DNA of 32,037 nt from Candidatus Liptonbacteria bacterium (GTDB lineage Bacteria; Patescibacteriota; Minisyncoccia; UBA6257; 2-01-FULL-56-20), in NCBI GenBank assembly GCA_016204385.1, contig JACQKW010000009.1:1-32037 (forward strand), in the 5' to 3' direction. Positions 2,177 through 32,037 of the stretch are shown one piece after another. Both the position numbers and the translations under genes were made by a program. Each line of letters begins with the position of its first letter. Position 1 is the stretch's first letter. The notes below the pieces were generated by a model, which did no database searches, was not told where the DNA came from, and worked only from the letters and a program-made list of their open reading frames with translations.

Positions 2177-4450
2177 TCACAAAGCTCTTAGTTTCGTCAA
2201 AATTTCTTCCGTATTCCCTTTATGGACGAGGAAGAAGTGAGTTTTGCCTTTACCAAGCTCCTCCCATACTTTCCCAATCTCCACTTTGTAGGCGGTATCA
2301 TCGTTGCTTATCCGGTCTTCACCCTTCCATTCAAGGGCAACGATATTACCTTTTTTCGTCATAGCTACAAAGTCGGGATAGAACTTGCCGCGTCGCCAAC
2401 CTTGAATGTAGAACGGGTCTACCTTCTCGCGGTTTCGCACCCAAAAGTCTATGTTGTTCAACGCTCCGAGGTCAATTCGCTCTACAAAACCCCGTTCTTC
2501 GCCGTTTATCGCGTCCACCTTTTCGTAAAGGTTTTTGTTAAAGACTTTTGGCACGGGCGACTTTAAGGCGATAGTCGCCGGAAACGAATCAAACAGGCCG
2601 AGCTTAACTTCTCCATTCTTCAACAGGTCTTTGAAAACTTTTTGCGTATACGCTTCAAGTATTTCGTTGATGACGGCACTAAGGCGGTCGGCGAGTAAGT
2701 ATCTGTTCACCGACAGCTCGGCAAGTTTTCGTTTCTTTTTTATCTGCGTCTCAACGGCTTTTTGTATGAAGGCGGCCTTGTCGTCTTGATTAAGCATTGG
2801 GAAGCGGAGCTTTTTATCAAGCCACGACACCAACTCCTCTACGGAGTGATTGCCTTCAAGATATTGATACGGCAATGAAAGCTGTTTGCCTGTGAGCCAT
2901 TCGTCGTCTTCCGTTATGTCTATCGTTGCTTGCCCGTCAAAGTCGTAATGGATTTTGAAGTCAAAATCCGCGTTCTGCTTCACCAACTTGAAGTCCTCGC
3001 CCAAGAGGTCTTCAAACGATAGTTTATCTTTCCCGAACGCCATCATCGGCACTTTCAAATCTTTCTTGATTGCTTTCTTTGCTTCTAACGGGTCGGAGTA
3101 TCCGCTTTCTTCTGCGACGCTTACAAAGTCGCCCCTGCTGTATCCGTTGTCTTCAAGCCCCTTGATGACTTTGCTTGCCGCGTCGTTGAAATCCTCCGAA
3201 GAAGCAAACACATAACTGCGGTTCATCGCTTCGTCGTCCTTACGCTTCGCGTTCGGCATACGAAGCACGCGACCGATGATTTGCTCCACCGCAACTTTCG
3301 CTCCCAAGTTCGCTACGGAGATAAGCACATAAGCGAAGGCACAATCCCAACCTTCCGCCAGCGCGTTTACTGTGAGAATGTATCGCACTTCGCACTTCTT
3401 GGAGAACAAATCAATGCCTTCCAGTTCGTCCGCTTCGGAAGTCTTAATCTTGATTTGCTCCTCCGGTATCTTCGCTTCAAGAAGCATTTGTTTGAGTTGC
3501 TCTACTGTTATCGTCTGTTTAACTTTGCTTTTCGGTTGGGCTTGGAGCAGGGCGATGGGGCGGATGTATTCTCCCTTCAATTTTTTCGCCCGCTTTTCAA
3601 GCTCCTCTCGCTTTGTTATCCCGTCGGCGACTACCTGTTCCCATTGTCGGCGGTTCGCAAGAACAATCGGAATCTTTACCATTTCTTCAAGTTTCAATTC
3701 GGAAGCACTCGTATTTACGAGAACATTACTGCCGTCTCGCGGTGTAGCCGTAAACTCTATGATGAACGACGGCCGGAGGTCGGAGAGAAACTGAATGGAC
3801 AAGTCCGTTTGTGTATGATGGCCTTCGTCTATAACGATAAGCGGGTTATGCTTGCGAATGACATTCGCAAGAGAGTTTACGACCGTCTTTGCTTTATCCT
3901 TTTCAAGAGCCGAGTCGTCTTTCAGGTTTTGAAAATGCTCCATCAGCGACCCGTTCTCTTTGTAGACTTTGTATTTGTTTTGGATTTTTGCGTCCTTTCG
4001 GAAGGCGTCCAAACTCGCCACAATAATACAAAGGTTATTCCTTACATCTTCGGGCGTAATGGTAAGAGCTTCTTCATTTGAGAACACCTTGAACTTCGTA
4101 TCAAAAGAATCGTTCAGCATTTCGTAGTGAAAGTCCTTCAAGTCGCGAAACTTTTTGAGTGTTTGCGTCTTGATGGAATCGGACGGCACGAACCACATCA
4201 CAATACCCGTGTCCATTTTGTGTTGGAGAGCGGTAGACATTATCCGCTCAATCGCTTTACACCCTACAAGCGTCTTGCCGCCTCCGGTTGGTATGCGGAT
4301 ACACACAAAAGGCACATCGCCGAACCATTCAGCGTTATATTTTTCTTCGGCCAATTCATAAAACGCGAGTTTCGGCTTTTGCTTTTTGAGCAACGCCAAA
4401 AAATCGTCCAGTGTTTCTATCGCGTTTTCTTGGTATCGTTTCAGTTTCAT
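2177..4450 (-). CDS. res: Type III restriction enzyme Res subunit (SF2 helicase-nuclease)
   Basis: A 757-aa superfamily 2 helicase with a C-terminal nuclease. Motif I is PTGGGKT (54-60), motif II is DEGHH (208-212), motif III is FTATPR (233-238) and motif VI is QIIGRVLRMP (about 400). Near the C-terminus a PD-(D/E)xK-type site is visible: PDFVAM (from 692) with ALEWKG, i.e. D693, E707 and K709. Type III Res proteins work in complex with Mod, hydrolyse ATP and cut near unmodified recognition sites. At 757 residues it is shorter than EcoP15I-type Res. The start is one base after the mod stop, implying translational coupling. No frameshift or missing catalytic motif was seen. Confidence 0.9.
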   Translation of the reverse strand: MKLKRYQENAIETLDDFLALLKKQKPKLAFYELAEEKYNAEWFGDVPFVCIRIPTGGGKTLVGCKAIERIMSTALQHKMDTGIVMWFVPSDSIKTQTLKKFRDLKDFHYEMLNDSFDTKFKVFSNEEALTITPEDVRNNLCIIVASLDAFRKDAKIQNKYKVYKENGSLMEHFQNLKDDSALEKDKAKTVVNSLANVIRKHNPLIVIDEGHHTQTDLSIQFLSDLRPSFIIEFTATPRDGSNVLVNTSASELKLEEMVKIPIVLANRRQWEQVVADGITKREELEKRAKKLKGEYIRPIALLQAQPKSKVKQTITVEQLKQMLLEAKIPEEQIKIKTSEADELEGIDLFSKKCEVRYILTVNALAEGWDCAFAYVLISVANLGAKVAVEQIIGRVLRMPNAKRKDDEAMNRSYVFASSEDFNDAASKVIKGLEDNGYSRGDFVSVAEESGYSDPLEAKKAIKKDLKVPMMAFGKDKLSFEDLLGEDFKLVKQNADFDFKIHYDFDGQATIDITEDDEWLTGKQLSLPYQYLEGNHSVEELVSWLDKKLRFPMLNQDDKAAFIQKAVETQIKKKRKLAELSVNRYLLADRLSAVINEILEAYTQKVFKDLLKNGEVKLGLFDSFPATIALKSPVPKVFNKNLYEKVDAINGEERGFVERIDLGALNNIDFWVRNREKVDPFYIQGWRRGKFYPDFVAMTKKGNIVALEWKGEDRISNDDTAYKVEIGKVWEELGKGKTHFFLVHKGNTEEILTKLRAL

Positions 4451-4451
4451 A

Positions 4452-6092
4452 TTAGTAGACTTTTATTTCGTATGGAATTTGTTTGAAGACGACGCCCTTT
4501 TCTCTTAATTCGTCCTCATCTATCAAACAGCGATCCGCGTATACTACGGCGGGCTGTTTGATTTTCAGTTTAGTCAAAGCGGCACGGGTAAGGTCATTCT
4601 TTCCCTTGCCCTCGTAGAGCAGGTAGTATGCCGTGCCGCCGCTAACTCCCACAAGCGGTGATTTTATATTCTTCTTCTCCGCATTTGTTTGCGTTTCGGT
4701 GAAGTAAATATAAGTAGCGAGTTCCGTATACGAACATCGCTCGTTGATTTGTCCCTTCTCATTGAAAAGCGGCTTGGCGAGTTCGCAAAACTCAAAGCCA
4801 TCTTCATACCCATATTTCTTGATAGCTCTTTTTATGCGTTCAGCAGTGATATTCTTCGCAACTCTATCTTCCATCTCTACCATTATAAACTTCCTATTCC
4901 CTCCGTCTTTTTTATTTAAATCCAAAACCGCGTGTCCGGTTGTTCCCGACCCAGAAAAAGAATCAAGAATAATAGAGTTTCTTGTGTTGGATACAGCCCT
5001 TATCAAATACTGAATTAGCGAGATTGGTTTAGGGTAAGCGAACTCTGCTGACGCGCCAAATATACCTCTCAAATCTTTTTTAGCAACATCGTTTGAATAC
5101 TGGGAATCCGTTAAATCAAGCGTGCTTAGTTTCTTAGTGCGGCCAATAGGAATAATTTGGTATGAACCATTAACTTTCTCAATAACTACCTTATAGTAGG
5201 TTTTTGTGTAAATCCTCGGCTCGCCATTTTTACCTTTTTTAACAACAAGAAAGCCGTTCTTATGACCGAAGTTTACCAACTCCTTACTCCATCTCCACGC
5301 CCAATCAGAAGACCTGTGATTTCCAGCTTTTCGTGAGAGAAATTTATCTTTTCTACCTCCGGGGTAATATCGCTTTCCATCAAGCGTTAGTTCATAGTCT
5401 AAAGATTTGCTGTATGACAAGCTATCATAATCAAGAGTTTGTGATAACGCAAAAGAACCTCTTTCTTTGAAGAATTCGTCTTTGTATTTGTATGCCTTAT
5501 CATCAATCGCAAGCGAGGCAAAGACGACGGACTTCTTGTTTTTCGCGAAAACTAATACATAGTCGTTGTTTGCTGAAACAGCGTCAGTTGTCTTACCTGC
5601 TGACTTTGTTCTGCGAGGGAAACTAACAACGAAATTGCCAATTCCAAATATCTCATCCATCAAACTTCGCAAATTACAGTGTTCATTGTCGTCAATAGAA
5701 ATAAAGATTACTCCATTTTCTGTGAGCAAATCCCTTAGTAGTCTAAGTCGCGGATACATCATACAAAGCCACTTATCATGGCGAGTTAAATCTTCGCCTT
5801 CACGGCCAACAACTTTTTTAATCCATTCTTGAATTTTTGGAGAATTAACCTTGTCGTTGTAGACCCAACCTTCGTTGCCCGTGTTGTAGGGCGGGTCAAT
5901 ATAGATACATTTCACTTTGCCCTTATAGAACGGCATAAGTGCTTTGAGTGCTTCAAGATTGTCGCCGTGAATAACGAGGTTTTTTGATTCTTTGCCGACA
6001 GAAGCACTCGGCACTTTATGGAGCAATTTAAAAGGCACTTCTCTGTCGTGATTTACTACCGCGTCTTTTCCTATCCAATTAAGTGAAGCCAT
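4452..6092 (-). CDS. mod: Type III DNA methyltransferase Mod subunit (N6-adenine, beta class)
   Basis: A 546-aa DNA methyltransferase with the beta-class motif order: catalytic DPPYN at residues 66-70 comes first, and the AdoMet-binding FSGSGTT at 379-385 comes later. The order and the partner gene identify it as Mod of a type III system. The variable central region (about 170-345) would contain the target recognition domain, and no tract of short tandem repeats of the phase-variable type was seen there. It starts 2 bases after the stop of the small HTH gene and ends 1 base before res, so HTH, mod and res form one unit. Recognition sequence cannot be inferred. Confidence 0.9.
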   Translation of the reverse strand: MASLNWIGKDAVVNHDREVPFKLLHKVPSASVGKESKNLVIHGDNLEALKALMPFYKGKVKCIYIDPPYNTGNEGWVYNDKVNSPKIQEWIKKVVGREGEDLTRHDKWLCMMYPRLRLLRDLLTENGVIFISIDDNEHCNLRSLMDEIFGIGNFVVSFPRRTKSAGKTTDAVSANNDYVLVFAKNKKSVVFASLAIDDKAYKYKDEFFKERGSFALSQTLDYDSLSYSKSLDYELTLDGKRYYPGGRKDKFLSRKAGNHRSSDWAWRWSKELVNFGHKNGFLVVKKGKNGEPRIYTKTYYKVVIEKVNGSYQIIPIGRTKKLSTLDLTDSQYSNDVAKKDLRGIFGASAEFAYPKPISLIQYLIRAVSNTRNSIILDSFSGSGTTGHAVLDLNKKDGGNRKFIMVEMEDRVAKNITAERIKRAIKKYGYEDGFEFCELAKPLFNEKGQINERCSYTELATYIYFTETQTNAEKKNIKSPLVGVSGGTAYYLLYEGKGKNDLTRAALTKLKIKQPAVVYADRCLIDEDELREKGVVFKQIPYEIKVY

Positions 6093-29660: not shown

Positions 29661-29832
29661 CCCCGCGCACCTAAGGAAGGCACAGAGTCCTCTGAATGAA
29701 GACGCGGCGTTTGGTTGATGTGCCAGATTTTCAAGAATTGATGAGGGTTTTTGAGAAAACTATGGGATGCTCTCGCTTCGCAATCCTCATTAGGTGGGGG
29801 GGTTGACGCCTTCCGCGTCGCCCTTATATACT
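29661..29832 (+). promoter_or_regulatory. Inverted-repeat module and promoter like that of tuf
   Basis: CACCTAAGGAAGG arm (29661-29680) and ATCCTCATTAGGTGGGGG arm (about 29783-29800) flank about 100 bases and run into TTGACG (29803-29808), with TATACT (29827-29832) 18 bases later. Same arrangement as 13543-13707. What it transcribes is unclear: 29840-29935 holds a GCCGATGG/CCATCGGC hairpin and only tiny frames (up to 25 codons from 29858). Confidence 0.6.
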
Positions 29833-29943
29833 AAGGGTATGAGATAGGTCCCTTGCATATGTCGAGCGGAGGATGCCGATGGGGGACCATCGGCGTTTCG
29901 TTTGAAAGGGGACCAGGAATAACGACTGCAGCTTGAAAAAATT

Positions 29944-29963
29944 CCAGCACATATTTTTGGAGT
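29944..29963. repeat. Cassette 1 left inverted repeat (CCAGCACATATTTTTGGAGT)
   Basis: Perfect 20-bp reverse complement of 30373-30392. Shares the core CAGCACATATTTTTG with 30765-30786 and 31115-31136. Confidence 0.9.
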
Positions 29964-30032
29964 ACACGGAGCGCACATGGATATTTTCGCCTTTTCACTT
30001 CTTAGTTGAATAAAAGGAAAAAGCGAGGGTGA

Positions 30033-30065
30033 AAATAAAAAGCGTACCCTTTCTCTGGGTACGCG
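30033..30065 (-). terminator. Terminator of the 59-aa membrane protein gene
   Basis: Minus strand GCGTACCC, loop AGAGA, GGGTACGC, then TTTTTATTTT. Confidence 0.88.
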
Positions 30066-30089
30066 GTCTTCGGCGGAGGAGCTCTTGCT

Positions 30090-30269
30090 TCACCTTCCCT
30101 TGGTCGCGGCCCAGATGATCGTGGCCGTAAACATCCACCCGAGGAAACCCGTCAGAAACTGGGTGGCGGAGCCGGACGAGGCGGCGATGACTCCGCCAAT
30201 GAGAATTGCGAGTACTACCATCCCGCCAAACCACAGCGCCGCGCGGACGCGAGAACCCTCGATTTCCAT
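30090..30269 (-). CDS. Small two-helix membrane protein (59 aa)
   Basis: MEIEGSRVRAALWFGGMVVL at the N-terminus; two hydrophobic segments, about 11-30 and 37-55, ending in a basic KGR. The ATG is 7 bases after AGGAGG. Promoter TTGACA-17-TATATT upstream and an intrinsic terminator downstream make it a complete single-gene unit, strong support despite the short length. Unknown family; size and layout resemble small stress or phage-shock-type membrane proteins, but nothing specific is recognised. It is enclosed by the 20-bp inverted repeat 29944-29963/30373-30392. Confidence 0.8.
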   Translation of the reverse strand: MEIEGSRVRAALWFGGMVVLAILIGGVIAASSGSATQFLTGFLGWMFTATIIWAATKGR

Positions 30270-30302
30270 AGTACCACCTCCTTTGCTAAGATTAAATATA
30301 GC

Positions 30303-30331
30303 ATGCCGCTGTTATATTGTCAAGGATTTTG
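30303..30331 (-). promoter_or_regulatory. Promoter of the 59-aa membrane protein gene
   Basis: Minus strand TTGACA, 17-base spacer, TATATT, followed by the AGGAGG site. A near-consensus promoter inside cassette 1. Confidence 0.8.
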
Positions 30332-30372
30332 CTTGACCCCGTCAATCCGCCCGCCGGCGGACACGAGGCAGG

Positions 30373-30392
30373 ACTCCAAAAATATGTGCTGG
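30373..30392. repeat. Cassette 1 right inverted repeat
   Basis: ACTCCAAAAATATGTGCTGG, the exact reverse complement of 29944-29963. Confidence 0.9.
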
Positions 30393-30406
30393 GAAATATG
30401 GAAAAA

Positions 30407-30486
30407 CTAGGTTGCTGGATTTCTGGGTGTCTGGGTAAAAGTTAATACCCAGATATCTAGATACCCAGAGACCCAGCAGACCTAGT
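30407..30486. repeat. Large imperfect hairpin (CTAGGTTGCTGG ... CCAGCAGACCTAG)
   Basis: Left CTAGGTTGCTGGATTTCTGG and GTGTCTGGGTA pair with right ATACCCAGATATCTAGATAC and CCAGAGACCCAGCAGACC over about 35 bp. It starts shortly after cassette 1. No T-run, no coding frame. Confidence 0.75.
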
Positions 30487-30570
30487 TGAAAGTTTTTTTG
30501 TTGTCCCAATACCAAATTTGCCCAAGAAATCGAGCCGCAAGGCGAAGGTTGATTGGCTGCAAATTTGAGT

Positions 30571-30719
30571 ACCCCGCACTAATTTTGCTTCCGAATTATT
30601 AAGCGGCGTGCGTGTGCGAATAGCACATCCCGTTATGGGCGAAGCGCGCCGCCGAGGTTTTTACTGAAGCTGTGAATTACGATACTGCAGGAACTTCGGG
30701 TGCAAAATTAGTGCGGGGT
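30571..30719. repeat. Hairpin cluster bounded by an 18-bp perfect inverted repeat
   Basis: ACCCCGCACTAATTTTGC (30571-30588) and its exact complement (30702-30719) enclose stems such as TGTGC-GAATA-GCACA and GGCG...CGCC. An AAATTTGCCC/GCAAATTT pair lies just outside to the left. The stretch 30270-30849 otherwise holds only the cassette repeats and the 30407-30486 hairpin; no gene. Confidence 0.75.
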
Positions 30720-30764
30720 TACAGAAAATTCATTTATCGGTTTGGAATTGAACTAAATCGAATA

Positions 30765-30786
30765 CCCAGCACATATTTTTGCGTTA
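30765..30786. repeat. Cassette 2 left inverted repeat
   Basis: CCCAGCACATATTTTTG followed by CGTTA; a perfect 22-bp reverse complement of 31115-31136. The outer 17 bases match the cassette 1 repeats and the inner bases differ from them. Confidence 0.9.
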
Positions 30787-30792
30787 TGACTT

Positions 30793-30822
30793 CAAAAGAA
30801 AACCAACCCCTGTGGGGTTGGT
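30793..30822 (-). terminator. Terminator of the 62-aa protein gene
   Basis: Minus strand ACCAACCCC, loop ACAG, GGGGTTGGT (one base shared), then TTTTCTTTT. Confidence 0.88.
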
Positions 30823-30849
30823 AGCAAACCGAGGAGAACCGAAAGAGTT

Positions 30850-31038
30850 CTAACGCGACCGCTCGTCGAAGACGAACATCACATCATGTACCGGTGGAGT
30901 GCTCTCGTGGTGAGTGCGAATTACCTGCACCGCGACCGCGGCTCTACCTTCCCCCTCCTTAAGCTCCTGGAGAGCGCCATTGATGGCCTCTTCGAGCCTG
31001 AGTCTTCCTTCGGACACCTTCCTGATTCTTACGTACAT
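30850..31038 (-). CDS. Small charged protein of unknown function (62 aa)
   Basis: MYVRIRKVSEGRLRLEEAIN at the N-terminus, a helical ELKEGEGRAAVAVQVIR middle and a DVMFVFDERSR end; a small alpha/beta soluble protein, not recognised. ATG 31038 is chosen because GGAGG lies 9 bases upstream; the longer frame to 31074 has no such site. Own promoter and terminator. Enclosed by the 22-bp inverted repeat 30765-30786/31115-31136. Confidence 0.72.
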   Translation of the reverse strand: MYVRIRKVSEGRLRLEEAINGALQELKEGEGRAAVAVQVIRTHHESTPPVHDVMFVFDERSR

Positions 31039-31075
31039 TGTTGTTGCCCTCCATTCAAGATTCTGAATGGACATT

Positions 31076-31104
31076 AATATACTTTGTTTTGGATGTCAAA
31101 TCAT
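31076..31104 (-). promoter_or_regulatory. Promoter of the 62-aa protein gene
   Basis: Minus strand TTGACA followed by several -10-like choices (TATATT at 12, TAATGT at 17 bases). The -35 is consensus, the -10 uncertain. Confidence 0.55.
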
Positions 31105-31114
31105 AATGTGTAAA

Positions 31115-31136
31115 TAACGCAAAAATATGTGCTGGG
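31115..31136. repeat. Cassette 2 right inverted repeat
   Basis: Exact reverse complement of 30765-30786. Confidence 0.9.
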
Positions 31137-31237: not shown

Positions 31238-31345
31238 TAAAAGAGGATTTGATCCTGGTCCAGGATGAACGCTGGCGGCGTGGATAAGGCATGCAAGTAG
31301 AACGGACGTAGCAGCCAGCTTCCAGCTACTAGCTTCCAGCCCGGA

Positions 31346-31354
31346 TGATATAAT
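31346..31354 (+). promoter_or_regulatory. Extended -10 promoter inside the intervening sequence
   Basis: TG at 31346-31347, one base, TATAAT at 31349-31354; no -35. Transcription would begin at about 31360, making ATG 31362 nearly leaderless and excluding ATG 31353, which overlaps the -10. Confidence 0.55.
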
Positions 31355-31361
31355 GGCAAGT

Positions 31362-31712
31362 ATGTCTTTCCGTTACAGAGATTTCCGTGTGTACAAAGAG
31401 GCGATTAGTTTTCATCGCTTGATAGTACAACTCACACGAAAATTTTCTAAAGAGTTTGAGTACTTACGGAATCAAATGAGACGAAGTTCTTTATCGGTAG
31501 TGTTAAATGTTGCTGAAGGGTCAGCGAAAAACTCTGATAAAGATTTCCGAAGATACCTGACAATATCATTAGGTTCGATCAACGAATCTATGGCTGGTTG
31601 TGAAGTAGCGTTAGCTGAGCATCTCATTGTACAAAGTGAGTTTCATCAGGCTGAGAAGGCTGCGGAGAACTTGGTAAAGCAACTCGGCAGTTTTGTTCAG
31701 AAATTGAAGTAG
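31362..31712 (+). CDS. Four-helix-bundle protein, S23/IVP family, encoded within 16S rRNA
   Basis: A 116-aa protein (MSFRYRDFRVYKEAISFHRL...). Family signatures: NQMRRSSLSVVLNVAEGSAK and DFRRYLTISLGSINESMAGC, the usual QxRRAxxSIxxNIAEG and GSxxE motifs of proteins found in rRNA intervening sequences and elsewhere. Helical, pentamer-forming in solved relatives; role unknown, possibly nucleic-acid binding. The start 31362 follows the internal -10; ATG 31353 is the alternative. The stop codon lies in the right arm of the closing stem. Base composition is AT-richer than the surrounding rRNA. Confidence 0.9.
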   Translation: MSFRYRDFRVYKEAISFHRLIVQLTRKFSKEFEYLRNQMRRSSLSVVLNVAEGSAKNSDKDFRRYLTISLGSINESMAGCEVALAEHLIVQSEFHQAEKAAENLVKQLGSFVQKLK

Positions 31713-31830
31713 CTGTTGGCTGGTGGCTGGCAGCTGGTTGCTATGTTAGTTGCGAACGAGTTAGTAACACCCTGGTACGTACCCCAGAGTCGGAGATAGC
31801 TCATAGAAAGGTGAGGTAATATCCGATGGT

Positions 31831-31919
31831 CCGTCCTTCGCTTTTTGCTCCGCAAAAAGCTTCGGAACGGCAGGCCCGCAAGAGCTTGCCAGTCCGTAGC
31901 TCTTTACGAAGTAAAGAGC
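31831..31919. other. V2-region expansion of 16S by tandem hairpins
   Basis: Three consecutive stems: GCTTTTTGC-TCC-GCAAAAAGC with flanking CCGT/ACGG (31831-31870), GGCAGGC...GCTTGCC (31869-31890) and GCTCTTTAC-GAA-GTAAAGAGC (31899-31919). They sit between TATCCGATGGT and TAAAGTCGCAAGACG, where E. coli has only a short helix 10. Confidence 0.7.
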
Positions 31920-32037
31920 GTAGGATGGTAAAGTCGCAAGACGCTCTGGGATCGGCCTAGGTCCGATCAGCTAGTTGGTAGGGTAATGGCCTACCAAGGC
32001 GATGACCGGTAGGGGAGGTGAGAGCCTGACCCCCAAC

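Follow-up and report, generated by a model that had tools for sequence, protein, structure and literature searches.

Why should two small leftward genes each lie precisely between inverted copies of the same 17-nucleotide sequence, and what kind of unit is formed in this way? The arrangement occurs in the stretch of 32,037 nucleotides analysed here (the window), which is the whole of contig C15 in the 605-kb genome G000 (80% complete and patescibacterial in appearance). The features considered are the following (position, strand, description, basis).

29803-29832, +, likely rRNA operon promoter TTGACG-18-TATACT (promoter scoring)
29944-29963, +, left arm of cassette 1, CCAGCACATATTTTTGGAGT (motif and inverted-repeat search)
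30042-30064, -, intrinsic terminator of gene 1 (terminator scoring)
30090-30269, -, gene 1, encoding a hydrophobic protein of 59 aa (max KD19 2.37), with GGAGG as Shine-Dalgarno (ORF call, codon use)
30295-30323, -, promoter of gene 1, TTGACA-17-TATATT, 11/12 (promoter scoring)
30373-30392, -, right arm of cassette 1 (motif and inverted-repeat search)
30488-30511, +, conserved rRNA leader box AAGTTTTTTTGTTGTCCCAATACC (comparison with relatives)
30571-30595, +, left arm of the third palindrome, ACCCCGCACTAATTTTGC..., no gene inside (inverted-repeat search)
30695-30719, -, right arm of the third palindrome (inverted-repeat search)
30728-30761, +, second conserved leader segment (next to the first box in G021 and G004, both relatives)
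30765-30787, +, left arm of cassette 2, CCCAGCACATATTTTTGCGTTAT (motif and inverted-repeat search)
30802-30822, -, intrinsic terminator of gene 2 (terminator scoring)
30850-31038, -, gene 2, encoding a soluble 62-aa protein, fold predicted as beta-alpha-beta-beta (ORF call, codon use)
31114-31136, -, right arm of cassette 2 (motif and inverted-repeat search)
31242-32037, +, 16S rRNA gene, 5' part, running to the contig end (start set by motif GAGGATTTGATCCTGG; Rfam RF00177 over 31692-32037)
31353-31712, +, S23-type 23S_rRNA_IVP ORF lying within 16S as an IVS insert of its own (PF05635, E 9.7e-24)

Palindromic units in the 16S rRNA leader

An Rfam search places the 5' part of a 16S rRNA gene at the right end of the window, and cassette 1, the third palindrome and cassette 2 all lie within its leader, directly upstream of the gene. 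Both this position and the third inverted pair had escaped the initial annotation. The arrangement of rpmE (bL31) followed by 16S recurs within the order, with a similar promoter 5' of the leader box in the relatives. The gap between the two genes amounts to 2194 bp in the window, the longest among 26 measurable loci.

The 17-mer is found at 29943(+), 30377(-), 30765(+) and 31120(-), and four matches occurred in 0 of 100 shuffles (shuffle mean 0.08). Three copies are exact and the one at 29943, reading TCCAGC..., has a single mismatch; their alternation as two inverted pairs was confirmed. The arms of cassette 1 (29944-30392) measure 20 nt at 100% identity and are 409 nt apart, those of cassette 2 (30765-31136) 23 nt at 100% identity and 326 nt apart, and the pair-specific inner bases described earlier were recovered (GGAGT and CGTTAT, respectively). 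Each pair encloses one small leftward gene and neither contains a transposase, as had been stated. The third palindrome (30571-30719), located between the cassettes, has ACCCCGCAC-type ends and arms that are 92% identical.

Codon use in both genes is coding-like: 0 of 2000 shuffles scored as high as gene 1 and 1 of 2000 as high as gene 2, with a ribosomal gene, the control, scoring above both. That each gene has its own promoter and terminator holds for both terminators and for the promoter of gene 1; the promoter of gene 2 is weaker, because TATATT follows TTGACA after only 12 nt, and the canonical promoter scan scored none there. Neither protein matched Pfam or NCBIfam, tblastn gave no match to either across the fetched loci, and PHROGs yielded no useful match (best E 0.047 for gene 1). 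The product of gene 2 (max KD19 0.27) was modelled from the single sequence with a pLDDT of 78.6. Its best PDB match was a dodecin, at a non-significant E of 0.27, and a dodecin-like assignment was rejected. No convincing relative of gene 2 appeared among 244 genomes, the single weak match falling in an 830-aa frame.

The two conserved leader segments are separated by ~216 bp in the window and adjoin each other in two relatives, G021 and G004. The third palindrome therefore lies in an inserted stretch, for which both relatives present the uninterrupted (empty) leader. The orthologous rpmE-16S regions are shorter than that of the window. At cassette 2 the junction is compatible with G021, over an alignment that is short, and for cassette 1 no precise empty site was found among the rpmE-16S regions of the relatives. 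The search for empty sites proposed earlier thus succeeded for the third palindrome and not for cassette 1, and the target duplications that were also to be sought were not visible in the flanks examined, in the window and at related loci. The term "inserted palindromic unit" can nevertheless be used firmly.

Two further structures were noted in this region. A long hairpin, ACTAGGTTGCTGG..CCAGCAGACCTAGT, lies at positions 30402-30486, after cassette 1 and before the leader box; a loose-threshold Rfam search of the leader returned chance-level matches only, those at 30402-30486 being due to this hairpin. At 31304-31735 the 16S gene contains an IVS-like insert with the S23-type protein in sense direction and, by eye, imperfect CCAGC-rich inverted arms. 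Group I or group II introns had no Rfam match; only rRNA and tRNA exceeded the gathering score.

Recurrence of the ends in other genomes

The initial annotation had named single, random copies of the 17-mer elsewhere as evidence against such units; within its own genome the sequence is confined to these four copies at one locus. Among 151 genomes (own and relatives) three match the 17-mer at up to 1 mismatch, the two others with single copies. A scan of 84,980 species found the exact 17-mer in 30 genome stretches, two of which hold exact inverted pairs: L038 (Sungiibacteriota) and L040, both within the 16S gene, after ..CCCGATAGT. L034 carries two gene-less 17-mer hairpins between 23S and 5S, and the other 27 stretches have no second copy at up to 3 mismatches in the fetched locus. 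Nine of 379 genomes across the phylum matched the 17-mer. Pairs were seen in two of them, the own genome and G319, the sequence of which resembles L034; another of the nine matches, L286, is a hairpin with a poorer partner. Viral contigs gave no match. L010 and the single 17-mers elsewhere were treated as chance, and L009, lying at a contig end with no clear right arm, was dropped as a 23S cassette. A family hairpin in L286 (G453, ~1438-1517) lies in frame within a protein-coding gene.

The pairs in L038 and L040 each enclose a different small ORF, antisense to 16S and followed by a terminator. In L038 this is a 36-aa ORF with a 12/12 promoter, for which codon use gives no support (395 of 2000 shuffles as high); in L040 it is a 39-aa ORF with some codon-usage support, and the promoter scan scored none in its direction. 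L038 and L040 have identical 20-nt arms and are 84% identical in their 16S parts; between the arms, an alignment of the two scores no higher than one of shuffled sequence. Of the four proteins encoded in 17-mer cassettes, three (gene 1, L038 and L040) are hydrophobic, with a max KD19 of 2.35-2.58. With gene cargo the 17-mer form is thus known in only three genomes. That each pair is a unit, as had been proposed, is borne out by the same ends around unrelated small genes elsewhere and by the absence of the elements from orthologous loci. Chance, or a lineage-specific duplication that copied one palindrome beside 16S next to unrelated genes, would fit the presence of the motif at one locus only in the own genome; given the exact pairs around genes in other genomes and the 0 of 100 shuffles, we regard it as very improbable.

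A strict scan combining inverted repeat, ribosome-binding site, promoter, terminator and ORF, applied to L060-L149 and to that end of the window which holds the 16S leader, returned two units only, cassette 1 and L109 (= L038), both with 17-mer arms; it overlooked gene 2, L040 and L128. The last of these (G072, 4363-4657, inside 16S) has different inverted arms around a hydrophobic ORF of 44 aa in antisense direction. Inspection by eye suggests promoter- and terminator-like signals for it, and its protein bears only a slight resemblance to that of L040.

The ends belong to a wider set of hairpins. A variant, CCCAGCACMATTTTTG, was matched at up to 1 mismatch in 20 of 243 genomes, with 60 matches against 15 for a reversed-pattern control (rows counted by hand), and forms inverted pairs in nine genomes. 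Family hairpins lie inside 16S in L120, L137 and L143, inside 23S in L197, and dispersed among genes outside rRNA, as short copies, in G235 and G084. In genes resembling those of type IV pilins (L198, L192 and L195, in G050 and G084), ACCCAGCACC hairpins stand at the GGGTTTACC codons, the G-F-T-L-I-E site, and may therefore be translated into the pilin leaders.

In rRNA-sense RNA both cassettes fold with their arms as the closing stem (z -9.5 and -5.8), and in L038, L040 and L256 the insertion occupies the loop of a 16S hairpin. Could the arms simply be rRNA processing or IVS stems under RNase III-type selection, with the genes as incidental passengers and nothing mobile? Such strong closing stems, the clustering of 17-mers in rRNA operons (in the genome of the window, L038, L040 and L034) and the placement of insertions in rRNA hairpin loops, as in published IVSs (PMC4990558, in the text available), would agree with this. 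It does not account for the hairpins dispersed outside rRNA in G235 and G084, for the leaders of relatives that are without the third palindrome, or for identical ends at non-homologous rRNA sites, and we consider it rather unlikely. The earlier idea that a ssDNA or RNA structure loops out each gene is compatible with insertion and is not a rival to it, since the arms close a pre-rRNA stem and the insertions of relatives lie in hairpin loops.

GIY-YIG genes between similar ends

In L104 (G004) an inverted-repeat insert in 16S encodes a GIY-YIG protein. Such genes were sampled at 68 loci in 26 genomes, a discovery set partly picked for carrying hairpins and forming part of 120-odd listed GIY-YIG matches (30 taken as given loci, the rest chosen from the short open frames at the top of the list). 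Of the 68, 17 were enclosed by an inverted repeat with a score of at least 15, or 16 of 67 after removal of one N-run artefact, against 0.45% in a mismatched-flank null. In other genomes belonging to the class, a further 29 GIY-YIG loci gave 3 at score 15 (null 1.15%) and 6 at score 12 (null 5.2%). Most of the GIY-YIG genes examined have no detectable inverted ends.

Low-complexity arms and both 17-mer arms were excluded from a comparison of arm starts: n(0-3)CC[CA] begins 15 of 20 arms around GIY-YIG genes and 3 of 62 belonging to the remaining inverted repeats at these loci. These figures are descriptive only, because the motif was chosen after inspection of the arms. The ends are similar, not identical, with a mean local score to the 17-mer of 5.9 for GIY-YIG arms versus 4.2. 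L256, a GIY-YIG element with CCCAGCTTCACTTTTG ends, lies at the same point of 16S as the cassettes of L038 and L040, a site which is not that of the window. In G235 the outer context of a GIY-YIG element is also that of hairpins with 22-nt loops, with one flank identical across the 60 bases compared, and the L120 hairpin and the broken GIY-YIG element of L132 have one common 16S site. A second end type, ATCCCGTTAGAGA, flanks GIY-YIG genes in L277, L272, L297, L303 and L312.

The window palindromes are likely akin to these GIY-YIG elements. Genes 1 and 2 encode no GIY-YIG nuclease by Pfam, and the likeness of the palindromic ends to those of the GIY-YIG rRNA insertions is one of similarity, not identity. 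The recurrence of palindromic ends around small genes or a GIY-YIG gene suggests an undescribed kind of mobile cassette. As for mobilisation in trans, the existence of units, their recurrence and a nuclease-bearing relative with similar ends speak for the earlier proposal; the lack of a target duplication and of such ends around any of the five single-domain GIY-YIG genes in the own genome (80% complete) speaks against it. No matching nuclease element was seen in this genome. Four of the single-domain genes of this genome (L214, L254, L279 and L282) directly adjoin tRNA-like sequences.

Our preferred reading, to which we assign a probability of about 0.58, is that the cassettes are IVS- or MITE-like insertion elements. 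Their family would include members with a gene for a GIY-YIG nuclease, presumed to be autonomous, and the copies in the window would bear other cargo. The third palindrome and both cassettes would then be insertions into the rRNA leader, their ends long and palindromic, and would belong to a broad patescibacterial family whose ends would start with (n)CC[CA] and often run CCCAGC..CA.TTTTTG. Its members would be of three types: presumably autonomous elements of ~280-320 bp with a single-domain GIY-YIG nuclease gene as the loop; gene-less, MITE-like hairpins; and cargo cassettes as in the window, with a small gene in the loop that has its own signals and runs antisense to rRNA. Elements would enter the loops of existing hairpins, or leader or spacer sequence, so that their arms would close a long stem in the RNA, which RNase III could cut; such cutting would make them tolerable in rRNA. 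We infer both the movement in trans by the nuclease and the removal by RNase III. The cargo is perhaps toxin-like, three of the four 17-mer cassette proteins being small and hydrophobic.

A more far-reaching version, tentative and in our view somewhat doubtful, is that of a new mobile-element class, in which palindrome-ended units enter hairpin loops, exchange their content (a GIY-YIG gene, nothing or cargo) and are moved in trans by GIY-YIG nucleases. If so, the antisense, mostly membrane-peptide cargo of the window might represent addiction-like genes, silenced as transcription of the rRNA passes through them.

Comparison with known systems

With MITEs and REP palindromes the family shares terminal inverted repeats without a transposase gene, as in the window cassettes, and dispersed copies in some genomes, of which G000, with its one locus, is not an example. 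It differs in that no target duplication was found, several carriers are without RAYT and gene cargo fills the loop. Ordinary MITE or REP elements moved by a known transposase (RAYT, or an IS with these ends) would explain short dispersed palindromes with no transposase inside. Matches to the Y1 transposase (PF01797) occur in only 7 of 15 carrier genomes, however, with none in G000 (80% complete), G235, G067, G142 and G071, and the GIY-YIG ORF is the sole nuclease between such ends in the loci examined. RAYT-driven REP elements were accordingly rejected, and movement by any known transposase of this kind is unlikely.

The rRNA intervening sequences of Coxiella, Leptospira and Salmonella 23S, as far as the accessible text of PMC4990558 describes them, resemble the family in that arms extend a stem, a hairpin loop is replaced and an ORF is possible; IVSs replace tetraloops and are cut by RNase III (PMC4990558). 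Inverted arms closing a stem are seen in the window cassettes, and insertion into an rRNA gene in place of a hairpin loop in L038, L040 and L256. Unlike IVSs, the window cassettes lie in the leader and not in mature rRNA, their cargo is antisense, has its own terminator (for gene 1 also a promoter) and is not S23p, and family ends occur outside rRNA as well.

A GIY-YIG gene is mentioned among transferred genes in the available part of PMC12455944. The literature search, which covered few subscription papers, found no report of inverted-repeat-ended GIY-YIG elements or of such cassettes. The closest parallel is provided by the non-intron insertion sequences with GIY-YIG genes in CPR rRNA genes, most CPR rRNA insertions lying at the top or base of stem-loops and spread by homing being doubted (Tsurumaki et al. 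2024, PMC11270868, in the portions available). Inverted-repeat ends are not described there (the main text has 0 occurrences of "inverted repeat"), and the same text, as available, describes neither hairpins that share such ends and have no gene, nor copies elsewhere than in rRNA, nor cassettes with antisense genes. CPR rRNA genes are rich in insertions, and the non-intron ones and their GIY-YIG genes lack an explanation, according to the same partial source (PMC11270868). The common palindromic ends would join nuclease elements, gene-less hairpins and gene cassettes as one family, in and outside rRNA, would offer a testable route by which IVS-like sequences enter rRNA, and would mean that such elements carry small genes on the strand opposite to the operon that the cell transcribes most.
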